In this document: positions 11,440 to 42,173 of the stretch, piece after piece
Layout of the letters: every line of letters begins with the position of its first letter
Position numbering within the stretch: the stretch's first letter is position 1
Assembly: GCA_017428545.1 (NCBI GenBank)
Contig: JAFRQR010000002.1
Span: 1 to 64,000, forward strand
DNA from: Clostridiales bacterium
GTDB taxonomy: Bacteria; Bacillota; Clostridia; Saccharofermentanales; Saccharofermentanaceae
DNA: 64,000 nucleotides
Direction: 5' to 3'
Notes under the pieces: generated by a model
Told to the model about the DNA's origin: nothing
What the model saw: the letters and a program-made list of their open reading frames with translations, nothing else
The model's database searches: none
Position numbers and translations under genes: made by a program

Positions 11440-13596
11440 ATGTTGAAGAAGAAGATCGGCGCTATGTTCCTGGCGCTGGCGATGCTCTCTTCCATTGCTC
11501 TGACAGCCTGCAACAGCTCCGACAAAGGAGAGTCTGAGTCTGCAGCTTCTGAGGTTGCTACCGAAAGCGCAACAGAAACTGAAACAGAAACAGAACCTAC
11601 TTCCACGGAGAGTGCTGTTCCCAGCATTATGGAAGACTTTGGCGGTGATGCGATCACTTATGAGCCGCGTGGTGAAGTTCAGCTGGATGTTGAAGATGCT
11701 GATGGTGCGGATGGAAAAGTACTTCACGTTTCCAACCGTACGGAAAACTGGAATGGTGTAAACTTCCCGTGTGACAACATGGCAGGTAACACTATCAATA
11801 TCAAGACTTCTGTTAAGTCTCCGAGTGATCATGTCATCATTTCTCTGCAGTTTGACATGCTCGGAAGCACAAAGTATGAAAATGTCATTCACATCTCCGG
11901 ATGCAAGGATTCTTTTGCAGTCGGTGAAGGTACAACTCCGATCCCGGAGACGGCTACAAACGTATACGTATACGTTGAGAACAGCACGACCGATGATATC
12001 TACATCGATTATATGTATGTAACGATCGAAGGCGATTATTTTGATCCGGCAAATGCCGCTGATGTTGAACTGGTCGATATCTCTTCCTATGAATCCCTGA
12101 AGGATCTTTACAAGGATGACTTCTATATCGGATGCTGCGTTCCGGATTCATTCGTTACAAGCCCTGTAGAAGAGCCGAGAACACTGCTTCTTAATCAGTT
12201 CAACTCCATCACATGTGAAAATGAGATGAAGCCTGAGAACGTTCTTGATGCTGCAACGACTCTTGCTGATCCTGAAAAGTACAACGAGAGCCCGGCACTT
12301 GATTTTACCAAGGCCATCACGATCCTTGACTTTGCTAAGGAAAACAACCTCAAGATGCGTGGTCATACTCTCGTATGGCACTCTCAGACACCGGACTGGT
12401 TCTTCTATGAGAACTACGATACATCCGCAAACCTCGCTAGCCGCGAGCTCATGCTGAAGCGTCTTGAGAACTATATCAAGGGTGTATTCGAATTTGTTAA
12501 CACGAATTATCCGGGTATGTTCTATGCATTTGACGTTGCCAACGAGTGTGTTGACGACTCCAATAATCTGCGTGAGAGCAACTGGACTAAGACGATCGGT
12601 CCGGATTTTCTCGAGTATGCTTTTAAGTATGCAAGACAGTATGCCGGCGATGACATCAAGCTTTTCTACAATGACTACAACGAGTATGACAGTGGAAAGC
12701 AGGATAAGATCATCGAAGTTCTTAAACCGATCGCCGAGGCAGGTAACCTTGACGGTATGGGTCTGCAGTCCCATATCTCCAGCCCGGTCTCCATGGAGAG
12801 ATATATCGGCGCTCTTAAGAAGTATGCGGACGAACTCGGTGTTACGATCCACGTAACCGAGCTTGATGTAAACGCGGTGAAGTCTTCTGCGAACCAGGAT
12901 TATGAGCAGGGTCTGTATTTCCAGAATCTGTTCTCTGAGCTCCTTAAGGCTAAGGCTGAGGGCTATGATATCGAGAGCGTAACGATCTGGGGTCTCACAG
13001 ATGCAGGATCCTGGCGTTCTTCCGATACACCGGTCCTTTTCCGTGGCGATCTTTCCAAGAAGCCGGCATTTGATGGTGTCGTTCTTGCTAAGAAGGGCGG
13101 CGAACTTGAAAAGCCTTCTGACTATGTTGAGCCGCCGAAGGATGACGATCCGTTTGACGATAACTTTGAAGATGGCACATTTGCAGGTTCTGCCCGCGCA
13201 GGTGCTACCGTGAAAGTGGTTGACGGCGCTTACGAAGGCGACAAGTGTGTACTCGTTTCCGGTGCTACGGAGACATGGGATGGTTATGTAGTTAACCTTT
13301 CCCGTTTCCTCGGTAAGAAACTGAAGGTTTCCTTCGCTGTTAAGTCTACAGCTGCACAGGTTTCTTTCAGTGCAGATATCGCTGATCTGTGGCCTCACAT
13401 CATTGAGGTCGATACCACGAGCGGTGATTGGGTATTTGTTGAAGGCGAACTCGACCTGACAACAAATAAGTGGGTACTGCCGACCGGTGAAGTTGAAGTA
13501 CCGGCTGATCTCGATTCTCTCGTTCTTTACTGGGAGACCCAGGATTGTACAGATGATCTCTATATCGATGCAGTTCATATGGAGGTTGTCGGATAA
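11440..13596 (+). CDS. Cell-surface GH10 endo-beta-1,4-xylanase with two CBM-like domains
   Basis: The 718-residue lipoprotein cuts the beta-1,4 backbone of xylan. It has a lipoprotein signal (lipobox LTAC, Cys24), a Thr/Glu stalk (about 40-58), an N-terminal beta-sandwich resembling CBM4/9/22 (about 62-195), the GH10 barrel (about 210-550) and a second CBM-like sandwich (about 565-718). GH10 motifs are clear: MKPENV, RGHTLVWHSQTPDWF, FDVANE with the acid/base Glu369, and HVTELDV with the nucleophile Glu474. The start follows GGAGG. The enzyme should be tethered to the cell, favouring capture of xylo-oligosaccharides. It is a single-gene unit with its own promoter, candidate operator and terminator. 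Confidence 0.95.
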   Translation: MLKKKIGAMFLALAMLSSIALTACNSSDKGESESAASEVATESATETETETEPTSTESAVPSIMEDFGGDAITYEPRGEVQLDVEDADGADGKVLHVSNRTENWNGVNFPCDNMAGNTINIKTSVKSPSDHVIISLQFDMLGSTKYENVIHISGCKDSFAVGEGTTPIPETATNVYVYVENSTTDDIYIDYMYVTIEGDYFDPANAADVELVDISSYESLKDLYKDDFYIGCCVPDSFVTSPVEEPRTLLLNQFNSITCENEMKPENVLDAATTLADPEKYNESPALDFTKAITILDFAKENNLKMRGHTLVWHSQTPDWFFYENYDTSANLASRELMLKRLENYIKGVFEFVNTNYPGMFYAFDVANECVDDSNNLRESNWTKTIGPDFLEYAFKYARQYAGDDIKLFYNDYNEYDSGKQDKIIEVLKPIAEAGNLDGMGLQSHISSPVSMERYIGALKKYADELGVTIHVTELDVNAVKSSANQDYEQGLYFQNLFSELLKAKAEGYDIESVTIWGLTDAGSWRSSDTPVLFRGDLSKKPAFDGVVLAKKGGELEKPSDYVEPPKDDDPFDDNFEDGTFAGSARAGATVKVVDGAYEGDKCVLVSGATETWDGYVVNLSRFLGKKLKVSFAVKSTAAQVSFSADIADLWPHIIEVDTTSGDWVFVEGELDLTTNKWVLPTGEVEVPADLDSLVLYWETQDCTDDLYIDAVHMEVVG

Positions 13597-32984: not shown

Positions 32985-34316
32985 ATGGATGTTCCACAGA
33001 TTACGATCATCGGAGCCGGTCTTGCGGGATCTGAAGCGGCGTATCAGGCTTCCCGTCTCGGCGTGAAGGTGCGTCTTTATGAGATGAAGCCTGTAAGAAA
33101 GAGTCCGGCACATCATAGCGATGGTTTCGCGGAACTTGTCTGCAGTAATTCCCTTCGGTCCAATCAGCTGGAAAACGGTGTCGGACTTTTAAAGGAAGAA
33201 TTACGTATACTCGGTTCTTTGATCATGCAGTCAGCAGATAAGAGCCAGGTCCCTGCAGGTGGAGCGCTTGCCGTTGACCGTGAAGAATTTTCAGGATTTA
33301 TCACGAAGACGATCCTTGAGGATCCAAATATTGAAGTGATCTACGATGAGATCCACAGTATTCCCGACGACGGTATCGTTGTGATTGCTACAGGTCCGCT
33401 TACAGACGGAGATCTTTATGACAGCATCATGGAAAAGACAGGGCATCAGGACATGCACTTTTTTGATGCGGCTGCTCCGATCGTTACAGAAGAAAGCATT
33501 GACAGAACTATCTGTTTTGCGATGTCCCGTTATGGAAAAGGCGGAGACGACTATCTTAACTGTCCGATGAATGAGGAAGAGTACCGGCGTTTCTATGAAG
33601 CACTTACAACAGCGGAACTTGCTGATGTGAAGGGTTTTGATAAAGAAACGGTATTCGAAGGCTGCATGCCGATCGAGACCATGGCTAAGCGCGGCTTTGA
33701 TACGATGCGGTTCGGACCTTTGAAACCTGTAGGATTGATCGATCCGAGAACAGGTGAAGAACCGTACGCCTGTGTGCAGCTTCGCCAGGATGACAGAAGT
33801 GCTTCGATCTATAATATCGTAGGATTTCAGACCAGACTGAAATTCCCCGAGCAGAAGCGTGTCTTTCAGATGATCCCGGGTCTTCAGAACGCCGAGTTCT
33901 CCAGATATGGTGTCATGCATCGAAATACATACATCGAATCTCCGAAACTTCTTTCTTCCGAGTACCGGATGAAAGATGATCCTGATGTGTTCTTTGCCGG
34001 ACAGATCACGGGTGTTGAAGGATATATTGAATCTACGGCTTCCGGTTATCTGGCAGGATATTATGCGGCGCTTTCTGCACTTGGAAAAGAAAGTCCGGTA
34101 AAGTTTTCTTCCGAAACCATGATCGGTGCGATGGCAGCCTATATTTCGGATCCCGGAGTAAAGCATTTTGCGCCGATGAATGCTAATTTCGGGCTGGTAG
34201 CGCCATTGGGATACCGGGTGAAAGGCAAAAAGAAAGAGAAGAATCTGGCATATGCTGAGCGTGCGCTTGCTGAAGTTCGCCAAAACAATGAAAAGATGGA
34301 GATGTTAAGAAGATGA
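32985..34316 (+). CDS. trmFO: Folate-dependent tRNA (uracil-54-C5)-methyltransferase
   Basis: The 443-residue FAD enzyme makes ribothymidine at position 54 of tRNA, taking the methylene from methylene-tetrahydrofolate. The FAD Rossmann motif is IIGAGLAGSEAAYQ at residues 7-20, followed by the GidA-family ELVCSNSLRSNQ, VPAGGALAVDRE and the C-terminal GQITGVEGYIESTASG. It is coupled to topA upstream, and its stop overlaps the next start by 4 bp. Confidence 0.96.
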   Translation: MDVPQITIIGAGLAGSEAAYQASRLGVKVRLYEMKPVRKSPAHHSDGFAELVCSNSLRSNQLENGVGLLKEELRILGSLIMQSADKSQVPAGGALAVDREEFSGFITKTILEDPNIEVIYDEIHSIPDDGIVVIATGPLTDGDLYDSIMEKTGHQDMHFFDAAAPIVTEESIDRTICFAMSRYGKGGDDYLNCPMNEEEYRRFYEALTTAELADVKGFDKETVFEGCMPIETMAKRGFDTMRFGPLKPVGLIDPRTGEEPYACVQLRQDDRSASIYNIVGFQTRLKFPEQKRVFQMIPGLQNAEFSRYGVMHRNTYIESPKLLSSEYRMKDDPDVFFAGQITGVEGYIESTASGYLAGYYAALSALGKESPVKFSSETMIGAMAAYISDPGVKHFAPMNANFGLVAPLGYRVKGKKKEKNLAYAERALAEVRQNNEKMEMLRR

Positions 34317-35191
34317 GTCAACAACCGCTGATTTCGGGAGACTGGGATAAGGTAGAATCGAAAAAGGGCTTTTTCCGCTCCTTTGCCAGAGACTGGGGCA
34401 AAGTATTCGGCGGAAACGCATTCTTGCTATTAGGCAATATGATCGTTTTTGTTATTGCTCTTTGCGTGGTCATGCTTTTTCTGCCGATGGTGTTTCCCGT
34501 ATTCCTTCCGGACAAACTGAAGGAGTACATTCTGGACACGGGCCTTGTGGACAAGGCACTTGTCACGGATGAGTCGGTAAATAATATCTACTATCTGATG
34601 TGTATGATCAGTTCTTTTGCGCTTTGCGGCCTGGGTCTGGTTACAAATGGCCCGTTTTGTTCAGCTGTCAGCTATTACTTTAAAAACGTACTGATCGGCG
34701 AGAATGATTTTAAAGCGGATATCAAAAAAGGTCTCAAGGACAACTGGAAAAGATCGCTCGGAGCTTCGGTCATTTCATTGATTATTACGATCATTCTTAT
34801 CTACAATATCGGTTTTTACCAGAGCGGTGCCATGTGGACGGGCGTTGCTGCAATGGCGGCAAAATCTTTCTTTTTCTGTCTGCTTTCGTTCTGGAGCTGT
34901 ATGCAGCTTTTTGTCTATCCTTTGATCGCTTGTGTCGAACTTACCTTTAAAGAAGTCTATAAGAATGCGGCATTGATAACGGTGCAGAATTTCCCGATCG
35001 CGATTTTGGTGTTCGTGATTCAGCTGGCCCTTTTCATAGTGTTGCCGTTCCTGTTCGTATTCCAGTTCGGATCTACGGGCTATGCGATCATGGTCATCTT
35101 GTATTTGCTTTTCTCTTTCGGATTTATCGGATACATCTCCATGTATCTGACTTGGCGCGCCATTCAGAAAGTCCTTAACAGTAAAGTATAA
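34313..35191 (+). CDS. Multi-pass membrane protein, YesL/DUF624-like
   Basis: The 292-residue protein has about five or six long hydrophobic helices (about 35-60, 85-110, 150-168, 180-205, 222-250 and 255-280). The layout, with a GP-containing loop after helix 2 and a mobile charged loop (YYFKNVLIGENDF), is reminiscent of the YesL/DUF624 family, but the match is by eye. The start overlaps the trmFO stop (ATGA). Its role is unknown; it ends the topA operon just before the phospho-signalling island. Confidence 0.6.
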   Translation: MSQQPLISGDWDKVESKKGFFRSFARDWGKVFGGNAFLLLGNMIVFVIALCVVMLFLPMVFPVFLPDKLKEYILDTGLVDKALVTDESVNNIYYLMCMISSFALCGLGLVTNGPFCSAVSYYFKNVLIGENDFKADIKKGLKDNWKRSLGASVISLIITIILIYNIGFYQSGAMWTGVAAMAAKSFFFCLLSFWSCMQLFVYPLIACVELTFKEVYKNAALITVQNFPIAILVFVIQLALFIVLPFLFVFQFGSTGYAIMVILYLLFSFGFIGYISMYLTWRAIQKVLNSKV

Positions 35192-35224: not shown

Positions 35225-35254
35225 TTGTACTTTTACATATATTTGAGATAGAAT
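35225..35254 (+). promoter_or_regulatory. Possible promoter of the phospho-signalling island
   Basis: TTGTAC (35225-35230) and TAGAAT (35249-35254) are 18 bp apart and lie 32 bp before the first gene of the five-gene island. The intergenic stretch 35192-35285 has no terminator. Confidence 0.45.
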
Positions 35255-35285
35255 AGAAGATAATCTGTTTGTGAGGTATGTGTAA

Positions 35286-36764
35286 ATGATACAGTGTGAA
35301 CGTGGTCATTTTTATGACGAGAGTCGTTATAGCAGCTGCCCTTATTGCAGCCAGGTTTCAGTAGCCCCCAGATCCGTGACCCCTCCGGTTGCTCCGAATA
35401 TGGAGATCCCGACGCCGTCTTGTGGAAAGACTGTTGCGGTAGAGGGAGTTGAAACAGCACCTTCCGTCGGTAAAACTGTAGCCATTGACATGCCGGCCGA
35501 ACAATTTGCGCCGATCAATAAGACGGTTGCTATCTCTGAACCGCCGCTCGATTTCCCGCCGGTAACACCGATTGCTCCGCCGGCTCCGGCTTATACCCCG
35601 TCGCCTGCCCAAGCACCCGTAGCTCAGGCTCCTGTACAGGCACCTGTTGCTCCGGCTCCGATCCCGACTCCGGCAGTTCCGGCAGCAGCTCCGGCCATAG
35701 CTGATATTCCGGTTTCTGCACCTGTTTCTGCACCGATAGCTCCTGCTCCGCAAGTTCCGGCGCAGCCTGCTGCTGCATCTTATGCTGAAGATATGAATGC
35801 AGGTATTCCGTATAATGGTGTATCTGAAACTCCTGAGCGTATCCTTACCGAACAGATCTCGATCGATCTCCCTGTTACAGGCCTTGGCGTTTCCGATCAT
35901 CCGAAGCCGATCCTTCAAGAAGAAAAGTTCTATCAGTCCTCTCCGGACAGACCATATGCCGTTACCGGTCTGGGGGTAAAAGAAAACCCGACTCCGATCC
36001 CGAACGATGTCGGCGCAACTTTCCCGATCCCTTCGGATGGAAGCAGTGCTTCTTCATCAGCCCAGCCGGGTCAGGCTGAAGCAGTTGCTTTTGCCGCATT
36101 CGGCTTCCCGGGCGGACCGATGCCGGGAATGGTTCCCGGTGTTCCGATGCCAGGTGCTCCGGCGGCTCCGCAGGCTCCTGCAGCTCCTGCTGTAACTGAT
36201 CCTGTCGAAGAAAAGGTTCAGGAAACCTCCGTATCAGAGGCAGCTCCGCAGATCTCTGTTTCAGAAACCGTTTCCGAGACTCCGGCTTCAGAAGCAGTTC
36301 CGGATTTCCCATCCACGGAACCTGCTGAGATCCCTGTAGATGCTCCTTCTCCGGTCATTGAAGAACCTAAGCCTTCGGATCCGAATGCTACAGTCGCTTT
36401 GACGGAATCGGATATGGATTTCATTCCGCGCGTACATGCCAGAGCTTTCCTTGTAGGCATTGATGGCCCTATGACAGGTGCCAGCTATGTATTCCAGGAA
36501 TCCAGAGCTGTCATTGGACGACAGAAGAATTATGAGATCTCCCTTTATCGTGACAATTCCGTATCCAGAAGCCCGCACGCGATCCTTACATACAATAAGG
36601 ATGCACTTCGTTATGCAGTCGCTCCGGGCGATGCGGATAAGAAAGTATCCGTTAACGGTGCTTTTATCGAGGGAGAGACCGAACTGAAGCTTTATGACGT
36701 GATCGGTGTCGGCCAGTCCAGATTGCTGTTCATTCCTGTATGTAGCGAGAAGTTTGCATGGTAA
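35286..36764 (+). CDS. Zinc-ribbon FHA protein with long Pro/Ala linker
   Basis: The 492-residue protein has an N-terminal zinc ribbon (CERGHFYD and CPYC, residues 4-21), a long disordered linker rich in Pro, Ala and Thr (about 28-380), and a C-terminal FHA domain (about 386-486) with GRQ at 411-413, SRSPH at 427-431 and VNGAF, the phospho-threonine-binding loop residues. There is no signal or membrane helix, so it should be cytoplasmic. The linker holds four copies of a TVA motif (GKTVAVE with Thr49, GKTVAID with Thr64, NKTVAIS with Thr80, NATVALT with Thr369) and two of VTGLGV (197-202, 226-231). It probably acts as a phosphorylated scaffold for the kinase at 39774. The next gene overlaps by 7 bp. 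Confidence 0.85.
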   Translation: MIQCERGHFYDESRYSSCPYCSQVSVAPRSVTPPVAPNMEIPTPSCGKTVAVEGVETAPSVGKTVAIDMPAEQFAPINKTVAISEPPLDFPPVTPIAPPAPAYTPSPAQAPVAQAPVQAPVAPAPIPTPAVPAAAPAIADIPVSAPVSAPIAPAPQVPAQPAAASYAEDMNAGIPYNGVSETPERILTEQISIDLPVTGLGVSDHPKPILQEEKFYQSSPDRPYAVTGLGVKENPTPIPNDVGATFPIPSDGSSASSSAQPGQAEAVAFAAFGFPGGPMPGMVPGVPMPGAPAAPQAPAAPAVTDPVEEKVQETSVSEAAPQISVSETVSETPASEAVPDFPSTEPAEIPVDAPSPVIEEPKPSDPNATVALTESDMDFIPRVHARAFLVGIDGPMTGASYVFQESRAVIGRQKNYEISLYRDNSVSRSPHAILTYNKDALRYAVAPGDADKKVSVNGAFIEGETELKLYDVIGVGQSRLLFIPVCSEKFAW

Positions 36765-37696
36765 TAGCGCTGAACCAAATCGTTGATACGTACACGAAGT
36801 ATTTCGACAAGGTAAAGTGGATCTTTGCCGCTTGCCTTGTCGTTTTGCTGATCATTTTGCTCATTCACATTCTTGTTTCGGGAAGAAAAAGAAACTCTCC
36901 GGATGCTTCGGACGCTTCGGAAAAATCTGAAAAATCCCTGTATATGGACAATGGCAGATTCCGAATCGAGATCGGGAATGTCCAGGGGACGGGCGAAAGA
37001 GAAGAGCAGCAGGATGCATTTGCTTTTTCACCAAGTTCAAAATGGAAGGATAAAGGATTCCTTGCCGTGCTCTGTGACGGTATGGGCGGCCTGGATTCAG
37101 GAGCGGCGATCTCAAATAAGCTTGTTTCGGATATTATCGCCGAGTTCCCGTATTCTTTCGAGAAACTGAAAGACGGCTGGATCCTCGATGCCCTGTCCAA
37201 TGAGATATTCCAGAATTACGCAGGAAGAGGCGGTACGACTCTTATCATCACTTATATCAAAGATGATAAGATGTGGTTTGCATCTGTCGGTGACAGCGAT
37301 CTTCTGCTTTTGCGTAACGGCCGCATCTATGCGATGAATACCCGACAGGAGTATGGAAATACTCTTCTGATGAGAGCCGCGGAGGGCGCGGTCTCTATGG
37401 ATCAGGCGCTTTTCCATTCGGATGCGGCGGCGCTGACGGAGTTCATGGGCGCAAAGCATACCAATCCGGACTTTTCGATCGTTCCGTGGCAGGTCATGGA
37501 TAACGATGTATATTTGTTGTGTTCTGACGGTATCAGTGATACGCTTTCCTTTGAAGAAATCAGGGAGGCTATGATGCATACTCCTTCGGAATGTGCGGAA
37601 CTCCTTGAAAAAGGGATCATTCAGAAGAGTAAGAAATATCAGGATAATTACACGGCGATCATATTTGCCGTGCATAAAATAGGAGGTAATAGTTGA
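36758..37696 (+). CDS. Membrane-anchored PP2C-type protein phosphatase
   Basis: The 312-residue protein has one membrane helix (about 21-41), a short charged linker and a cytoplasmic PP2C domain. Metal-binding acids are seen in EQQDAF (Asp86), LCDGMGGLDSG (Asp107), SVGDSDLLLL, CSDGISD and DNYTAI. It should remove phosphate from Ser/Thr at the membrane, opposing the kinase four genes on. The start overlaps the FHA gene by 7 bp, so translation is probably coupled. The stop is 1 bp before the protease start. Confidence 0.9.
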   Translation: MVIALNQIVDTYTKYFDKVKWIFAACLVVLLIILLIHILVSGRKRNSPDASDASEKSEKSLYMDNGRFRIEIGNVQGTGEREEQQDAFAFSPSSKWKDKGFLAVLCDGMGGLDSGAAISNKLVSDIIAEFPYSFEKLKDGWILDALSNEIFQNYAGRGGTTLIITYIKDDKMWFASVGDSDLLLLRNGRIYAMNTRQEYGNTLLMRAAEGAVSMDQALFHSDAAALTEFMGAKHTNPDFSIVPWQVMDNDVYLLCSDGISDTLSFEEIREAMMHTPSECAELLEKGIIQKSKKYQDNYTAIIFAVHKIGGNS

Positions 37697-37697
37697 T

Positions 37698-39056
37698 ATG
37701 AAGTGGGTAAGACGTATCTTTATGTTTCTTCTGATACTGGCGATCGCGGGGTGTGGAGTGCTTGCATTCCTGAACTTCCGTGACTGGTCGGATGCCAAAG
37801 AAGAACTCGATGAAGTAAAAGCGGAAAAGTTCATTTCTGACGAAGAAGGGGTGGGATTTGCACCGGATGAAAACCAGAAATCTGTTGCTTTTATCCTTTG
37901 CGTAGCGGAGGATGGTTCAGGATATATTTACTGGGGTTCTTCCTTTGCCGTCGGATCTGATGTCGATGGAAAAGTCCAGTATCTGGTCACCAATGGTCAT
38001 GTCGTTCAGCCGCATAAAGAGTTGGGCTGTTCGATCCATGTAGTATTCGAGGACAACGAGATGGTTACTCCGGAAGTCGTTTTCTATGAAAATGATGAGA
38101 ATCTGGATATGTCCATTCTCAAACTTCCTGAACCTGTAAGCGTCAGAAAGCCTGTTGTTATCCGTGACTCGGATACTGTCAAAGCCGGTGAAAAATGTCT
38201 TGCTATCGGTTATCCGGATAAAGCAGCAGAAGTTGATTCGAATTTTTCCGGTGATATTTCCAGCCAGTCTGTCAACTCCGGTGTCATCTCTAACACAAAT
38301 GTCATACCGTCCCAAAAGGCTTATACGACATTCCAGCACGACTCCTTTATTTCTCATGGTAACTCCGGTGGTCCTCTGTTTGATAAGGATGGTTTCCTGA
38401 TCGGCATGAATACTCTCGGCCGTGAAGATACGGACAGCGTTAACTACGCCATCGTTTCCAACACGGTCATGGAGATTCTTGATGAATATGATGTAGATTA
38501 TGTGACCAGCGAGGACTATCTCGATGATATTGATAGTGAGCAGTCTGCTGCAAAGAAGAAGTTTGATAAGAAGCATGAAGCCGCTCTCTCCGATGCAGAG
38601 GATGAAGTAACAGAGGCCAGAAACAAGATGCTGGTATTTGTTATTGCGGCAGCTGTCTGCGCGATCGCTCTGCTTATCCTTTTCATCGTCGGTAACAAGA
38701 AAGTCGTTATGGTGGGTGAACAGGATGACGGAAAGAAGTCCTATCTTATTTGCACAAAGGGTATTTTCGCCGGCCAGTCTTTCGAGATGGCAGATAACAC
38801 GATGACGATCGGACGTGATAAGAACTCCTGTACATTTGTATTCCCGGAAGATACTCCGGGTATCAGTTCGAATCACTGTTCCGTCTACTTTGATGCCAGA
38901 ACGAAGACATTTGTCCTGACAGATAACGGTTCCACATACGGAACATATCTTAGTAACGGAAGAAAACTTACAAAGGGCGTTCCGGAAAAACTGGTTCCGG
39001 GCTCCACATTTGCACTTGCTGATAAAGCAAATGAATTTATGGTAGACAGAAAGTAA
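37698..39056 (+). CDS. Two-pass trypsin-like protease with cytoplasmic FHA domain
   Basis: The 452-residue protein has a membrane helix (about 7-27), an S1-type (HtrA-like) serine protease domain outside the cell (about 60-265), a charged helical linker (about 275-310), a second membrane helix (311-332) and a cytoplasmic FHA domain (about 355-445). The triad is His101 (VTNGHVV), Asp137 (NLDMSI) and Ser223 (GNSGGP). The FHA domain keeps IGRDK, SSNH and NGSTYGTYLSNG. No PDZ domain is present. The arrangement could let kinase signalling control an outside protease, or the reverse. The ribosome site is AGGAGG. Confidence 0.9.
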   Translation: MKWVRRIFMFLLILAIAGCGVLAFLNFRDWSDAKEELDEVKAEKFISDEEGVGFAPDENQKSVAFILCVAEDGSGYIYWGSSFAVGSDVDGKVQYLVTNGHVVQPHKELGCSIHVVFEDNEMVTPEVVFYENDENLDMSILKLPEPVSVRKPVVIRDSDTVKAGEKCLAIGYPDKAAEVDSNFSGDISSQSVNSGVISNTNVIPSQKAYTTFQHDSFISHGNSGGPLFDKDGFLIGMNTLGREDTDSVNYAIVSNTVMEILDEYDVDYVTSEDYLDDIDSEQSAAKKKFDKKHEAALSDAEDEVTEARNKMLVFVIAAAVCAIALLILFIVGNKKVVMVGEQDDGKKSYLICTKGIFAGQSFEMADNTMTIGRDKNSCTFVFPEDTPGISSNHCSVYFDARTKTFVLTDNGSTYGTYLSNGRKLTKGVPEKLVPGSTFALADKANEFMVDRK

Positions 39057-39061
39057 GTAAG

Positions 39062-39769
39062 ATGGATCACTATTCGTACACAAATGTCGGCGGACACGAG
39101 CCGAACTGCGATTATGCACAGGTCATTGAGCATGATGATCAGGTTCTGATCGTCCTTTGTGACGGTTTGAACGGCATGCCGAGCGGTGACCAGGCGGCTA
39201 AGATCATATCAGATGAGGCTATGGCGGCCTTTCTCCAAGGAGAAGGGCCTTCAGCCGTTTGTGTGACTGCGAATAAGAAATTCCGTGAAATGCAGTTTGA
39301 CAACGTGGATTTCAGAAGAGCCGGCGCTACGATCTGTGCCGTCCGTATCCGTGACGGAAAATGCGAATGGGCCAATGTGGGTGATTCTCATATCTATCAC
39401 TTTTCGAATGGAGCTTTGGCTCATCACTCAGTGGATGATACGCCGACTTATCGGTCCTTTGAACGTGGAGAGATCGATTATGAAGCAATCCGCGAGCAGG
39501 AAGACCGTACGGGAATGACGATCTGCATCGGACAAAAAGAAGAGATCGTTCCTCACGAAGAATCATTCGATATCGCAAAAGGCGACGGGATCCTCGTTTG
39601 TTCCGACGGTTTCTGGGAGTATGTCTACGAGACGGAGATGCTCATCGATCTTCATAAGTCCTATACACCTAAGGACTGGGCAGAGAAGATGATCCTTCGT
39701 GCTACACAGAGAAGTCATCTCAAAGGTGACAATCTGACTTTGGTAACTTACATTAAACAGGCAGGGTGA
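39062..39769 (+). CDS. Soluble PP2C-type protein phosphatase
   Basis: The 235-residue protein is a PP2C domain alone, with no membrane helix. Motifs are NCDYAQ (Asp17), LCDGLNGMPSG (Asp34; the usual DGMGG is changed to DGLNG), WANVGDSHIY, CSDGFWEYV and GDNLTLV, so the metal acids are kept. It should dephosphorylate Ser/Thr in the cytoplasm. It is the second phosphatase of the island; the two differ in location and probably in target. It sits 5 bp after the protease gene and 4 bp before the kinase gene. Confidence 0.88.
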   Translation: MDHYSYTNVGGHEPNCDYAQVIEHDDQVLIVLCDGLNGMPSGDQAAKIISDEAMAAFLQGEGPSAVCVTANKKFREMQFDNVDFRRAGATICAVRIRDGKCEWANVGDSHIYHFSNGALAHHSVDDTPTYRSFERGEIDYEAIREQEDRTGMTICIGQKEEIVPHEESFDIAKGDGILVCSDGFWEYVYETEMLIDLHKSYTPKDWAEKMILRATQRSHLKGDNLTLVTYIKQAG

Positions 39770-39773
39770 AGGC

Positions 39774-42173
39774 ATGGATACGAGTAAACTTTGTTTTGGA
39801 TGTTTTAGTGATCACGACGGTTCAGGTCCCTGCCCGCGATGCGGTTATGACCTGTCCAAGGCGAAACACCCATTTGTTGCACTTCCGATCGGAACGATCC
39901 TTAACGGCCGATATCTGACCGGACGCGTACTTGGCGTGGGCGGTTTCGGTGTCACGTATCTGGCTTTCGATATGACATTAGAGATCAATGTCGCGATAAA
40001 AGAGTATCTTCCGTCGGGCATCGCACTTCGCGATTCGGATCGTTACACGATGACCGTAAGTTCTCCGGAAGAACAGACGAAGTTCAATACAGGGGCAACC
40101 AAGTTCCTCGATGAGGCCCGCCTTCTCGCTAAACTCCGCGACGTGCCGAATATCGTTACGGTTCAGGATTATTTCCGTGAGAACAATACTGCCTATTTCG
40201 TCATGGAGTATATCGAGGGTGTCGACCTGATGAAGTACACACAGTCGAAGGGTGGAAAACTGCCGTTCCAGGAAGCACTCTATCTGCTTCTGCCGGTCAT
40301 CGACTCTTTGGCGCATGTTCATGCACATAATCTTCTGCATCGTGATATCAGCCCGGACAACATCGTTGTCATGAAAAACGGAAGTACAAGACTTTTGGAT
40401 TTTGGTGCTGCCCGTCTTGCCGTTGATACCGAAAAGAGTAAGTCCATCATCTTAAAGCATGGCTTTGCTCCGGAAGAACAGTACAGAAAACACGGAAACC
40501 AGGGGCCGTGGTCCGATGAGTATGCCCTTGCTGCCACGATGTACCTGATCCTTACGGGGGTAATGCCGCCGGATGCGATCGAACGAGTTCATGAAGATAC
40601 TTTGCAGTCTCCGATCGAACTTGGCGTGGATATTCCACAGTATGCCAATGATGCCTTGATGAAAGCGCTTTCCGTCAATGCATCCGGTCGTTTCCCGGAC
40701 ATGACTTCGTTCTCTGAAGCTCTGACGGGAAGAAAAGGAGCGGCGACTGTTCATTCAGCTTCTTATGCGGCTTCTTATACACAGCCTCAGGCTCCTTCTT
40801 CTGATGAACTTCCGACTGCGGGTAATTCGTATGATGACGGAAAAATGGTTGAGGGAAGAACCGTTGCCATGGATCAGGATTCTTCGGAGAATACGAATCC
40901 TGCGCAAAAAGTGCTTTCACCGTCGATCCTTGCTCCGGATCAGCAGAGCCAGAATCCGTCCGTACAGCAGACAGGCGGATCCGTTGCGGCACCCCAAACC
41001 CGGAAGAAGAGCATCTGGAAACGTCCGCTGACATATGTGATCGCGGGTATCGTGGCACTTGCCGGTATCGGTACGGCCGTCGGTGTCTACATTTCCCGGA
41101 ATTATGAATTCGGTACTTCCACGACCGCAAAGAAAACGACAAGAAAAACGCGCGCGACTGCGACAGATCCGAAACCGACTCCGAAGCCGACGATCCCGGA
41201 TCCTGATATTGCTACGGGAACAGATGTCAATGTATATACGGATAATGTCAGAAACTTTTCGATCTCGGCATCTACGGATTATGCTTTCCAGAACGATAAC
41301 GGCCTTTTCACGCTTACCCGATCCGATCAGACATGCACGGTCTACACGGATCTGATCGATGGAATTGAAGGTATGCGCGTAGATTCGCTCATGGATTTCA
41401 ATGCGCAGAGCGACAAGATCCTGACCTATTATATTCAGGATGTTCTTGGTTACAATGATCTGGTTATGACGACCGACTACTTTTATAAGCATACCTTTAA
41501 CGGCAATACGGCATTCGAGTATAGCGGCAATGCCTACAAAAACGGTCTGAACAATGATATTACCATCCTTGTTTATGAAAGGAAGGAAGCCCCGGGTGTC
41601 TTTGTGACTTGTGGTTTTATTCCGGCAGATGAGTATGGTATGTACGATCAGAATGATGTCGATTCTGTATCCGAGATCCTAGTCTCTTTGGCAGAAAAAT
41701 CCGAGCGGAACAGCGATTACGTATTTTATACGAGCGATGACATGCCGGAATTTGTTTACCGTTCTTCCGATGTTGCTTCCGTAACCGATGCAACGATCGG
41801 AAATGATATCAGAACTTTGGAACTCACTCTTTCCAATGTTACTGACCCGGATTCGAAACTGTTTATCATTTCGCTTGGATCTTTGGATTCGATCACGGCG
41901 GCTTGTACGGCGACCGAGCAGGCACTCGCTTTCCAGTATAAGTTCGGCGGATATACTTCGATGACTCCTGTACTTCGTACGAATAACGAGGTCAGGATCA
42001 GAGACTATACTCTCACTAAGATCGAAGATGAATCGAAGACCATGGACTGCACGGCTTGTGTGATCAATTTAAACGGCGAATTCTATTCGGTGATCGCCAC
42101 ATGCTGTAACCAGGAGGATCTTGAAAGCGTAACGCTTGATTTTACCTTGCTTGTTAAGACTATGGTCGAGTGA
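39774..42173 (+). CDS. Transmembrane Ser/Thr protein kinase with zinc ribbon
   Basis: The 799-residue protein has an N-terminal zinc ribbon (CFGC and CPRC, residues 7-23), a Hanks-type kinase domain (about 43-318), a cytoplasmic linker (about 320-415), one membrane helix (418-440) and an outside region of about 355 residues, Thr/Lys/Pro-rich then two beta-type domains. The P-loop is LGVGGFGVTY, the ATP lysine Lys76 (VAIK), the catalytic Asp191 in HRDISPDN, and DFG is 209-211. The usual catalytic-loop lysine is Ser193. The linker carries GRTVAMD (Thr363), the same motif as in the FHA protein. There are no PASTA repeats, so this is not PrkC. It is probably the sensor of the island. Confidence 0.9.
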   Translation: MDTSKLCFGCFSDHDGSGPCPRCGYDLSKAKHPFVALPIGTILNGRYLTGRVLGVGGFGVTYLAFDMTLEINVAIKEYLPSGIALRDSDRYTMTVSSPEEQTKFNTGATKFLDEARLLAKLRDVPNIVTVQDYFRENNTAYFVMEYIEGVDLMKYTQSKGGKLPFQEALYLLLPVIDSLAHVHAHNLLHRDISPDNIVVMKNGSTRLLDFGAARLAVDTEKSKSIILKHGFAPEEQYRKHGNQGPWSDEYALAATMYLILTGVMPPDAIERVHEDTLQSPIELGVDIPQYANDALMKALSVNASGRFPDMTSFSEALTGRKGAATVHSASYAASYTQPQAPSSDELPTAGNSYDDGKMVEGRTVAMDQDSSENTNPAQKVLSPSILAPDQQSQNPSVQQTGGSVAAPQTRKKSIWKRPLTYVIAGIVALAGIGTAVGVYISRNYEFGTSTTAKKTTRKTRATATDPKPTPKPTIPDPDIATGTDVNVYTDNVRNFSISASTDYAFQNDNGLFTLTRSDQTCTVYTDLIDGIEGMRVDSLMDFNAQSDKILTYYIQDVLGYNDLVMTTDYFYKHTFNGNTAFEYSGNAYKNGLNNDITILVYERKEAPGVFVTCGFIPADEYGMYDQNDVDSVSEILVSLAEKSERNSDYVFYTSDDMPEFVYRSSDVASVTDATIGNDIRTLELTLSNVTDPDSKLFIISLGSLDSITAACTATEQALAFQYKFGGYTSMTPVLRTNNEVRIRDYTLTKIEDESKTMDCTACVINLNGEFYSVIATCCNQEDLESVTLDFTLLVKTMVE

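Follow-up and report, generated by a model that had tools for sequence, protein, structure and literature searches.

The mycobacterial pknA-pknB-pstP-fhaA-fhaB operon, which is not a secretion operon, brings together kinase, PP2C phosphatase and two FHA proteins; unlike the operon described here, it has a PASTA kinase, is linked to RodA/PbpA and encodes no protease. In this study, we analyzed a 64,000-nucleotide stretch (the window; positions 1 to 64,000 of contig JAFRQR010000002.1) of the 2.9-Mb, 98% complete genome of a Clostridiales bacterium (GenBank assembly GCA_017428545.1), in which five plus-strand open reading frames (ORFs) at positions 35286-42173 (6.9 kb) encode, in this order, a zinc-ribbon FHA protein (FHA1), a membrane PP2C (PP2Cm), a trypsin-like protease bearing an FHA domain (protease-FHA), a soluble PP2C (PP2Cs) and a membrane Ser/Thr kinase. 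We propose, at what we judge to be even chances, that this operon is a self-contained phosphothreonine (pThr) circuit gating an outward-facing HtrA-type protease.

Several other described systems share part of this composition. The type VII secretion system (T7SS) variants T7SSc, T7SSe, T7SSf and T7SSj combine kinase, PPM phosphatase and FHA, and all come with TsxC and WXG100 (Garrett 2024, PMC11217815). As in these variants, a single Bacillota locus here holds FHA proteins, PPM/PP2C phosphatase and a membrane kinase with a domain outside the cell, but TsxC and WXG100 are lacking here, and the text of that paper mentions no trypsin-like protease (PMC11217815). In PpkA/PppA/Fha, the threonine phosphorylation pathway of the type VI secretion system (T6SS), kinase, PP2C and FHA also act on a membrane partner, and the phosphate-binding Fha residues R30 and S46 have counterparts here (PMC3953482); however, the FHA-bearing membrane partner is here a protease, and the locus is free of T6SS genes. 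GarA/OdhI proteins have a phospho-acceptor threonine motif ahead of their FHA domain (PMC12321487), a placement that a candidate phosphorylation site of FHA1 would match, but their motif is ETTS, their targets are metabolic enzymes, and they have no zinc ribbon, tandem motifs or membrane protease; FHA1 gave no match to the OdhI model and is not a member of this family. The archaeal ArnA-ArnB module includes a zinc-finger FHA protein in a kinase-dependent setting (PMC6509490) and a vWA partner of a kind also found in related Clostridial clusters, but that partner controls archaellum expression and no protease is involved. In the GAP1-N2 systems (Kaur 2020, PMC7159879), a zinc-ribbon kinase adjoins PP2C and vWA genes, but these systems are actinobacterial, GTPase centered and without FHA-protease. 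Finally, like DegS, the HtrA-type site-1 protease of the sigma-E pathway, the protease of the operon is membrane anchored and predicted to act outside the cytoplasm, and DegS without PDZ is among its closest solved folds, whereas a second transmembrane (TM) helix and a cytoplasmic FHA domain stand in for the PDZ regulator.

An earlier, sequence-only reading of the window knew of no described system with this composition. This holds for the combination with the protease but not for sets of kinase, PP2C and FHA proteins, which the T7SS variants, the mycobacterial operon and ArnA-ArnB already provide. The circuit is of a known type, and a protease as its proposed output would be of a new one; our literature search, whose coverage left out preprints and many subscription papers, returned no description of a protease-FHA with kinase and PP2C.

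Results

Organization and conservation of the operon

The five ORFs are FHA1 (35286-36764, 492 amino acids [aa]; the FHA-like family Yop-YscD_cpl, E value of 7.8e-6, under the cut-off), which we propose to be a phospho-scaffold, PP2Cm (36758-37696, 312 aa; PP2C_2, 2.6e-7), protease-FHA (37698-39056, 452 aa; Trypsin_2, 1.9e-22, and FHA, 1.5e-12), PP2Cs (39062-39769, 235 aa; PP2C_2, 5.9e-10) and the kinase (39774-42173, 799 aa; Pkinase, 1.3e-29), all with Pfam families. FHA1 and PP2Cm overlap by 7 bp, and the next three gaps measure 1, 5 and 4 bp, exactly the gene order and spacing of 1 to 7 bp given by the sequence-only reading. Genome-wide, Pfam matches amount to three kinases, four PP2C_2 and two FHA, of which one, two and one, respectively, lie inside the operon; since such domains are few in the genome and the gene order is kept across the genus, the grouping is not due to chance.

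The protease was present in 22/22 genus-mates searched, and the order topA, trmFO, DUF624, FHA1, PP2Cm, protease-FHA, PP2Cs, kinase, tgt was constant wherever the contig reached (loci L044-L065; the contigs of L062 and L047 break off within PP2Cm and within the kinase, respectively). The genes flanking the operon in the window are topA, trmFO, DUF624, tgt and queA. A comparison of gene neighborhoods had been suggested, and the genes turned out to be neither scattered in relatives nor embedded in a secretion locus. In the sister genus g5, FHA1, PP2C, protease-FHA and kinase occur together in about 9/85 genomes, at another chromosomal site, and a small extra protein mostly replaces the soluble PP2C. 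Among these 85 genomes, 9 had both FHA1 and protease-FHA, 2 had FHA1 only, none had the protease only and 74 had neither (Fisher p of 1e-10, a value that ignores kinship among genomes and so overstates their independence). Class-wide, neighboring protease and FHA segments were found in at least 11 of 293 genomes.

The protease-FHA protein

Protease-FHA is predicted to consist of a first TM helix (TM1, 37701-37769), an external HtrA/DegS-like protease domain without PDZ (about 37884-38486), a helical stalk with a second TM helix, TM2 (stalk and TM2 together, 38508-38693), and a cytoplasmic FHA domain (38739-39053). The N-in, protease-out, FHA-in topology is predicted from positive charges ahead of TM1 (MKWVRR) and behind TM2 (GNKK). 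The catalytic triad (His101, Asp137 and Ser223) is complete and invariant in all sampled members, and both the sequence and the predicted fold, an S1C trypsin fold, group the domain with HtrA/Deg proteases (Foldseek matches to Deg1, DegP and DegS-deltaPDZ, E value of about 1e-13). Pfam found no PDZ domain in the protease, the FHA domain following TM2 instead. The AlphaFold model (pLDDT of 85.9) contains a helix over residues 2-42 and a single 62-residue helix (271-332) leading from the protease via TM2 toward the cytoplasmic FHA domain. As modeled, the protein is a DegS-like HtrA protease without PDZ, linked to an FHA domain by one predicted helix, an arrangement newly reported here. An N-terminal lipoprotein signal (IAGC) was considered and rejected, as its Cys is not kept among orthologues.

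Across 73 protease FHA domains, the phosphate-contacting Arg (Arg373) is kept in 71 and Ser (Ser390) in all, as is His393 (73/73), but Tyr (Tyr414 in this protein) stands at the position of the usual Asn in 59/73. Binding of pThr by this domain is therefore likely, albeit not certain.

The kinase and the two phosphatases

The kinase carries a zinc ribbon (39792-39845) ahead of its Ser/Thr kinase domain (39906-40718), in which Lys76, Asp191, Asn196 and Asp209 are conserved, followed by a predicted TM helix (about 41028-41093). Both PP2Cs keep the metal-ligand Asp residues; in PP2Cm, an N-terminal TM helix (about 36818-36886) with positive charges behind it would leave the PP2C domain in the cytoplasm. 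The retained catalytic and metal-binding residues suggest that the kinase and both phosphatases are active enzymes and, together with the gene order kept in the genus, agree with the earlier view of a single unit holding one writer and two erasers.

The remainder of the kinase (about 41211-42170) is predicted to be external and to form tandem PsbP/Mog1-like domains. Its AlphaFold model (pLDDT of 89.6, pTM of 0.85) matched CyanoP (2xb3, TMt 0.73) in Foldseek, and also LpqN and DcrB, pointing to a tandem PsbP/Mog1/DcrB-like fold, newly reported here. These predictions agree with two further points of the sequence-only reading, a kinase with a large outside region and a protease with its full triad outside and an FHA domain inside. 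The same type of kinase elsewhere has DUF5050 or leucine-rich repeats (LRR) outside. Since ectodomains differ by lineage, the sensor would be swapped while the rest of the module stays constant. Orthology of the operon kinase with PrkC of the PrkC-PrpC pair was rejected, since the true pair, a PASTA kinase PrkC (518 bits) with the phosphatase PrpC, lies separately on contig C13 of the host genome; with the PASTA kinase model NF033483, the operon kinase scores 149 bits against a cut-off of 450.

FHA1 and the TVA motif

FHA1 begins with a CHCC zinc ribbon (35286-35351; C4, H8, C18 and C21 invariant), continues with a Pro/Ala-rich, disordered-looking linker of ~350 aa and ends with an FHA-like domain (about 36438-36761) that Pfam detects only weakly, its FHA pattern being revealed by alignment with 45 homologues. 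Four copies of a short motif, hereafter TVA, punctuate the linker: GKTVAV (Thr49, 35424-35441), GKTVAI (Thr64, 35469-35486), NKTVAI (Thr80, 35517-35534) and ATVAL (Thr369, 36387-36401). Their threonines are 100% conserved within the genus (over 21 sequences for the first motif). The fourth motif lies just N-terminal of the FHA-like domain in a GarA/OdhI-like position. The juxtamembrane linker of the kinase carries the related GRTVAM (Thr363, 40854-40871); in the genus it reads MVxG[KR]TV[AG]M, and across 23 kinases M358, G361, T363 and V364 do not vary, within a linker whose mean conservation is 0.57. To the best of our reading, this G-K-T-V-A motif with an invariant Thr, common to the linker of FHA1 and the juxtamembrane segment of the kinase, is newly reported, and its threonines are best read as candidate phosphorylation sites of the kinase and docking sites for FHA domains.

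The motif recurs in relatives. Repeats take the form SDIGKTVAV in FHA1 of g5 and GKTVAV, GATVAP or GATEPV elsewhere among Clostridia, and a vWA-FHA protein and the protease linker of loci L073 and L108 also contain TVA. Of the 182 linker threonines in 31 distantly related FHA1 proteins, 71 fall within [KAE]T[VE][AGPS], whereas composition shuffles gave 2.7 (maximum 9). In 21/30, the FHA start follows the final copy at a distance of exactly 17 residues, reminiscent of the phospho-acceptor motif in GarA/OdhI (PMC12321487). Genome-wide, the host DNA holds 19 matches to K-T-V-A-hydrophobic (control, 25), three of them in FHA1 and no more than one in any other gene; the other 16 were rejected as further substrates, none being tandem and most resembling folded domains or noncoding frames. 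Other conserved Thr-bearing islands, PYAVTGLGVKENPTPIP and DVGATFPIP, occur in the FHA1 linker at 35871-36032.

Two pThr readers had been proposed for the operon. The protease FHA domain, with Arg and Ser kept and Asn mostly Tyr, is a likely reader, and FHA1 is a less likely one: within the genus its pocket keeps R and S but has lost the STN loop, and in g5 GR is gone too, whereas FHA1 of most Clostridia retains the GR, Ser and STN pocket. Given this partly degraded pocket and the four conserved TVA motifs, FHA1 in the genus is more likely a substrate or scaffold than a second reader.

Related clusters outside the genus

A scan of GTDB genomes gave 80 named loci, whose ORFs were relabeled by custom hidden Markov models, and 29 complete clusters from beyond the genus were examined. 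PP2C was found in 28 of them, kinase in 26, a second FHA protein in 27 and all of these in 25; because the clusters were chosen via protease-FHA, these figures show which genes accompany it and not how frequent it is. The ingredients of the module (kinase, PP2C, zinc-ribbon FHA protein and membrane protease with FHA) are thus kept far beyond the genus. The commonest order, seen in Lachnospiraceae and many others, has the kinase upstream of zinc-ribbon FHA, PP2C, protease-FHA and PP2C; alternatively, the kinase is downstream with two PP2Cs ahead. In seven loci, a conserved protein of ~135 aa (L067:10447-10854 and six homologues), without Pfam family match, lies between protease-FHA and kinase, replacing the soluble PP2C. 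Apart from it, the unlabeled neighbors of the distant clusters shared no common functional family, and no ATPase gene recurred.

Enlarged clusters ([Clostridium] asparagiforme DSM 15981, L123; a Paenibacillaceae metagenome-assembled genome, L120) carry vWA-TM-FHA, RDD-FHA, PrsW-FHA and several kinases. In [C.] asparagiforme, which is in culture and completely sequenced (L123:3064-20972), four downstream kinase genes have DUF5050 or LRR ectodomains, and the cluster also encodes a PrsW-protease/FHA fusion, a kinase/FHA fusion, a vWA-FHA protein and an FHA1 with GATEPV repeats. The PrsW-protease/FHA fusion is newly reported here. In Christensenella (L128:9848-11920 and L134:9839-12010), TM2 of an outward trypsin-like protease leads into a kinase domain of the same family, degenerate in that the catalytic Asp motif is lost; another TM helix and a further C-terminal region follow.

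Discussion

We propose a model in which the kinase would sense an envelope signal through its tandem PsbP-like ectodomain and would phosphorylate the TVA threonines of its own juxtamembrane linker and of the FHA1 linker. The protease could then dock on these phosphothreonines through its cytoplasmic FHA domain, and clustering or strain would travel along the continuous stalk and TM2 helix to the external protease. Once activated, the protease may cut an envelope or surface substrate, possibly by site-1-type cleavage, and membrane PP2Cm and soluble PP2Cs would remove the phospho-marks. Folds and topology of the module are predicted, and we infer the TVA threonines as sites, their binding by the protease FHA domain and the inside-out direction. 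This circuit is suggested by the gene order in the genus, the 25/29 distant clusters, the co-occurrence in g5, the TVA enrichment, the kept Arg and Ser and the continuous helix, and also by the Christensenella fusion of protease and degenerate kinase and the PrsW-protease/FHA and kinase/FHA fusions of [C.] asparagiforme. DegS and PrsW are both site-1 proteases of anti-sigma factors, so the presence of PrsW-FHA in enlarged clusters suggests a site-1 theme.

Four observations weigh against the proposed circuit. The usual pocket Asn is Tyr in 59/73 protease FHA domains, and affinity or specificity may therefore be unusual. In relatives, hydrophobic residues do not always occupy position +3 of the TVA motif, so that the motif fits no single known FHA class. 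The Christensenella protease bears a pseudokinase where the FHA domain is expected, hence reading of pThr is not a universal trait of the protease. Moreover, the PASTA kinase of the PrkC type on contig C13 could phosphorylate the same TVA sites.

Topology and continuous helix would suit signaling in either direction, and the protease domain could instead be an outside-in sensor that senses or cuts outside while TM2 relays to the FHA domain, the scaffold being released or presented to kinase and phosphatases with a cytoplasmic output. Foldseek also matched RsgI9 of Clostridium thermocellum, with an S1C-NTF2 ectodomain, and RsgI anti-sigma factors signal through the membrane. We consider this direction unlikely: all sampled members keep the triad unchanged, which argues that proteolysis itself matters, and the kinase already provides a variable external sensor (PsbP-like, DUF5050 or LRR). 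About equally improbable, in our judgment, is that the FHA-pThr contact serves only to bring a constitutively active HtrA-like protease near the kinase complex, e.g., at the septum or at envelope damage, with its activity unchanged. FHA domains act mostly through binding, and PDZ-less HtrA proteases can be constitutively active; an unbroken helix from protease toward FHA exceeds what a tether needs, a point that is not decisive.

Far less credible is control of an unlinked secretion or assembly machine with the protease as a mycosin-like processing enzyme, even if kinase, PPM phosphatase and FHA occur together in T7SS variant loci (PMC11217815), and an orphan DUF6382-FHA gene of the genome resembles TseJ/TsfJ. 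The only genomic match to the EssC/EccC (TsxC) model is FtsK-like (104 bits against a cut-off of 778), the 98% complete genome has no match to WXG100 (PF06013), and no secretion ATPase recurs beside distant clusters. An assignment as T7SS component was rejected on the lack of EssC/TsxC and WXG100; the operon is not a T7SS, although its signaling logic is alike. No T6SS structural gene was found among the operon neighbors, no genome-wide search having been aimed at T6SS genes. The locus lacks secretion genes, as had been read from the sequence. It is likewise very doubtful that the protease is a feedback sheddase clipping the neighboring kinase ectodomain to end signaling: both lie on the same membrane side and in one operon, but ectodomains are wholly different between lineages while the protease is constant. 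A role in antiphage defense was also rejected, as PADLOC matched only generic kinase, protease and PP2C, and the locus is core genome amid housekeeping genes.

Beyond this operon, we tentatively suggest, with somewhat less confidence than for the circuit itself, a widespread unnamed Clostridial system in which cytoplasmic Thr phosphorylation would gate proteolysis outside, with swappable kinase ectodomains (PsbP-like, DUF5050 or LRR) and a common TVA phospho-code, with FHA domains of membrane proteins (HtrA-like protease, PrsW, vWA and RDD) as its readers. If true, this would be phospho-controlled regulated proteolysis across the membrane, the protease being switched from inside, whereas the ligand that activates DegS acts from the same side of the membrane as the protease. 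Bacterial Ser/Thr kinases are mostly without known outputs; here, a likely output, reader, erasers and candidate phosphorylation sites are encoded together. As gut and rumen Clostridia, the cultured [C.] asparagiforme DSM 15981 among them, conserve these co-encoded parts, the whole pathway from kinase to surface proteolysis could be tested with purified parts.

Other features of the window and genome

A consensus promoter scan found no plus-strand site immediately 5' of FHA1; a putative promoter, TTGTAC-N18-TAGAAT, was spotted by eye at about 35226-35255. The gene of a DUF624/MusI-like membrane protein (34313-35191) adjoins the operon on its 5' side in the genus; it is fast evolving and elsewhere does not accompany the module. 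Elsewhere in the genome, a membrane PP2C, a vWA-like protein and a weak kinase-like protein (L041:6616-11301; contig C31, about 331.6-336.3 kb) form a second, different phospho-signaling arrangement without FHA. The orphan gene mentioned above (L042:8900-10120; contig C35, about 17.9-19.1 kb) encodes a DUF6382-TM-FHA protein similar to TseJ/TsfJ of T7SSe/f and is located next to ATP synthase genes. Finally, the window encodes a GH10 xylanase with CBM4/9 (11440-13596), which fits a plant-fiber-degrading gut or rumen bacterium.

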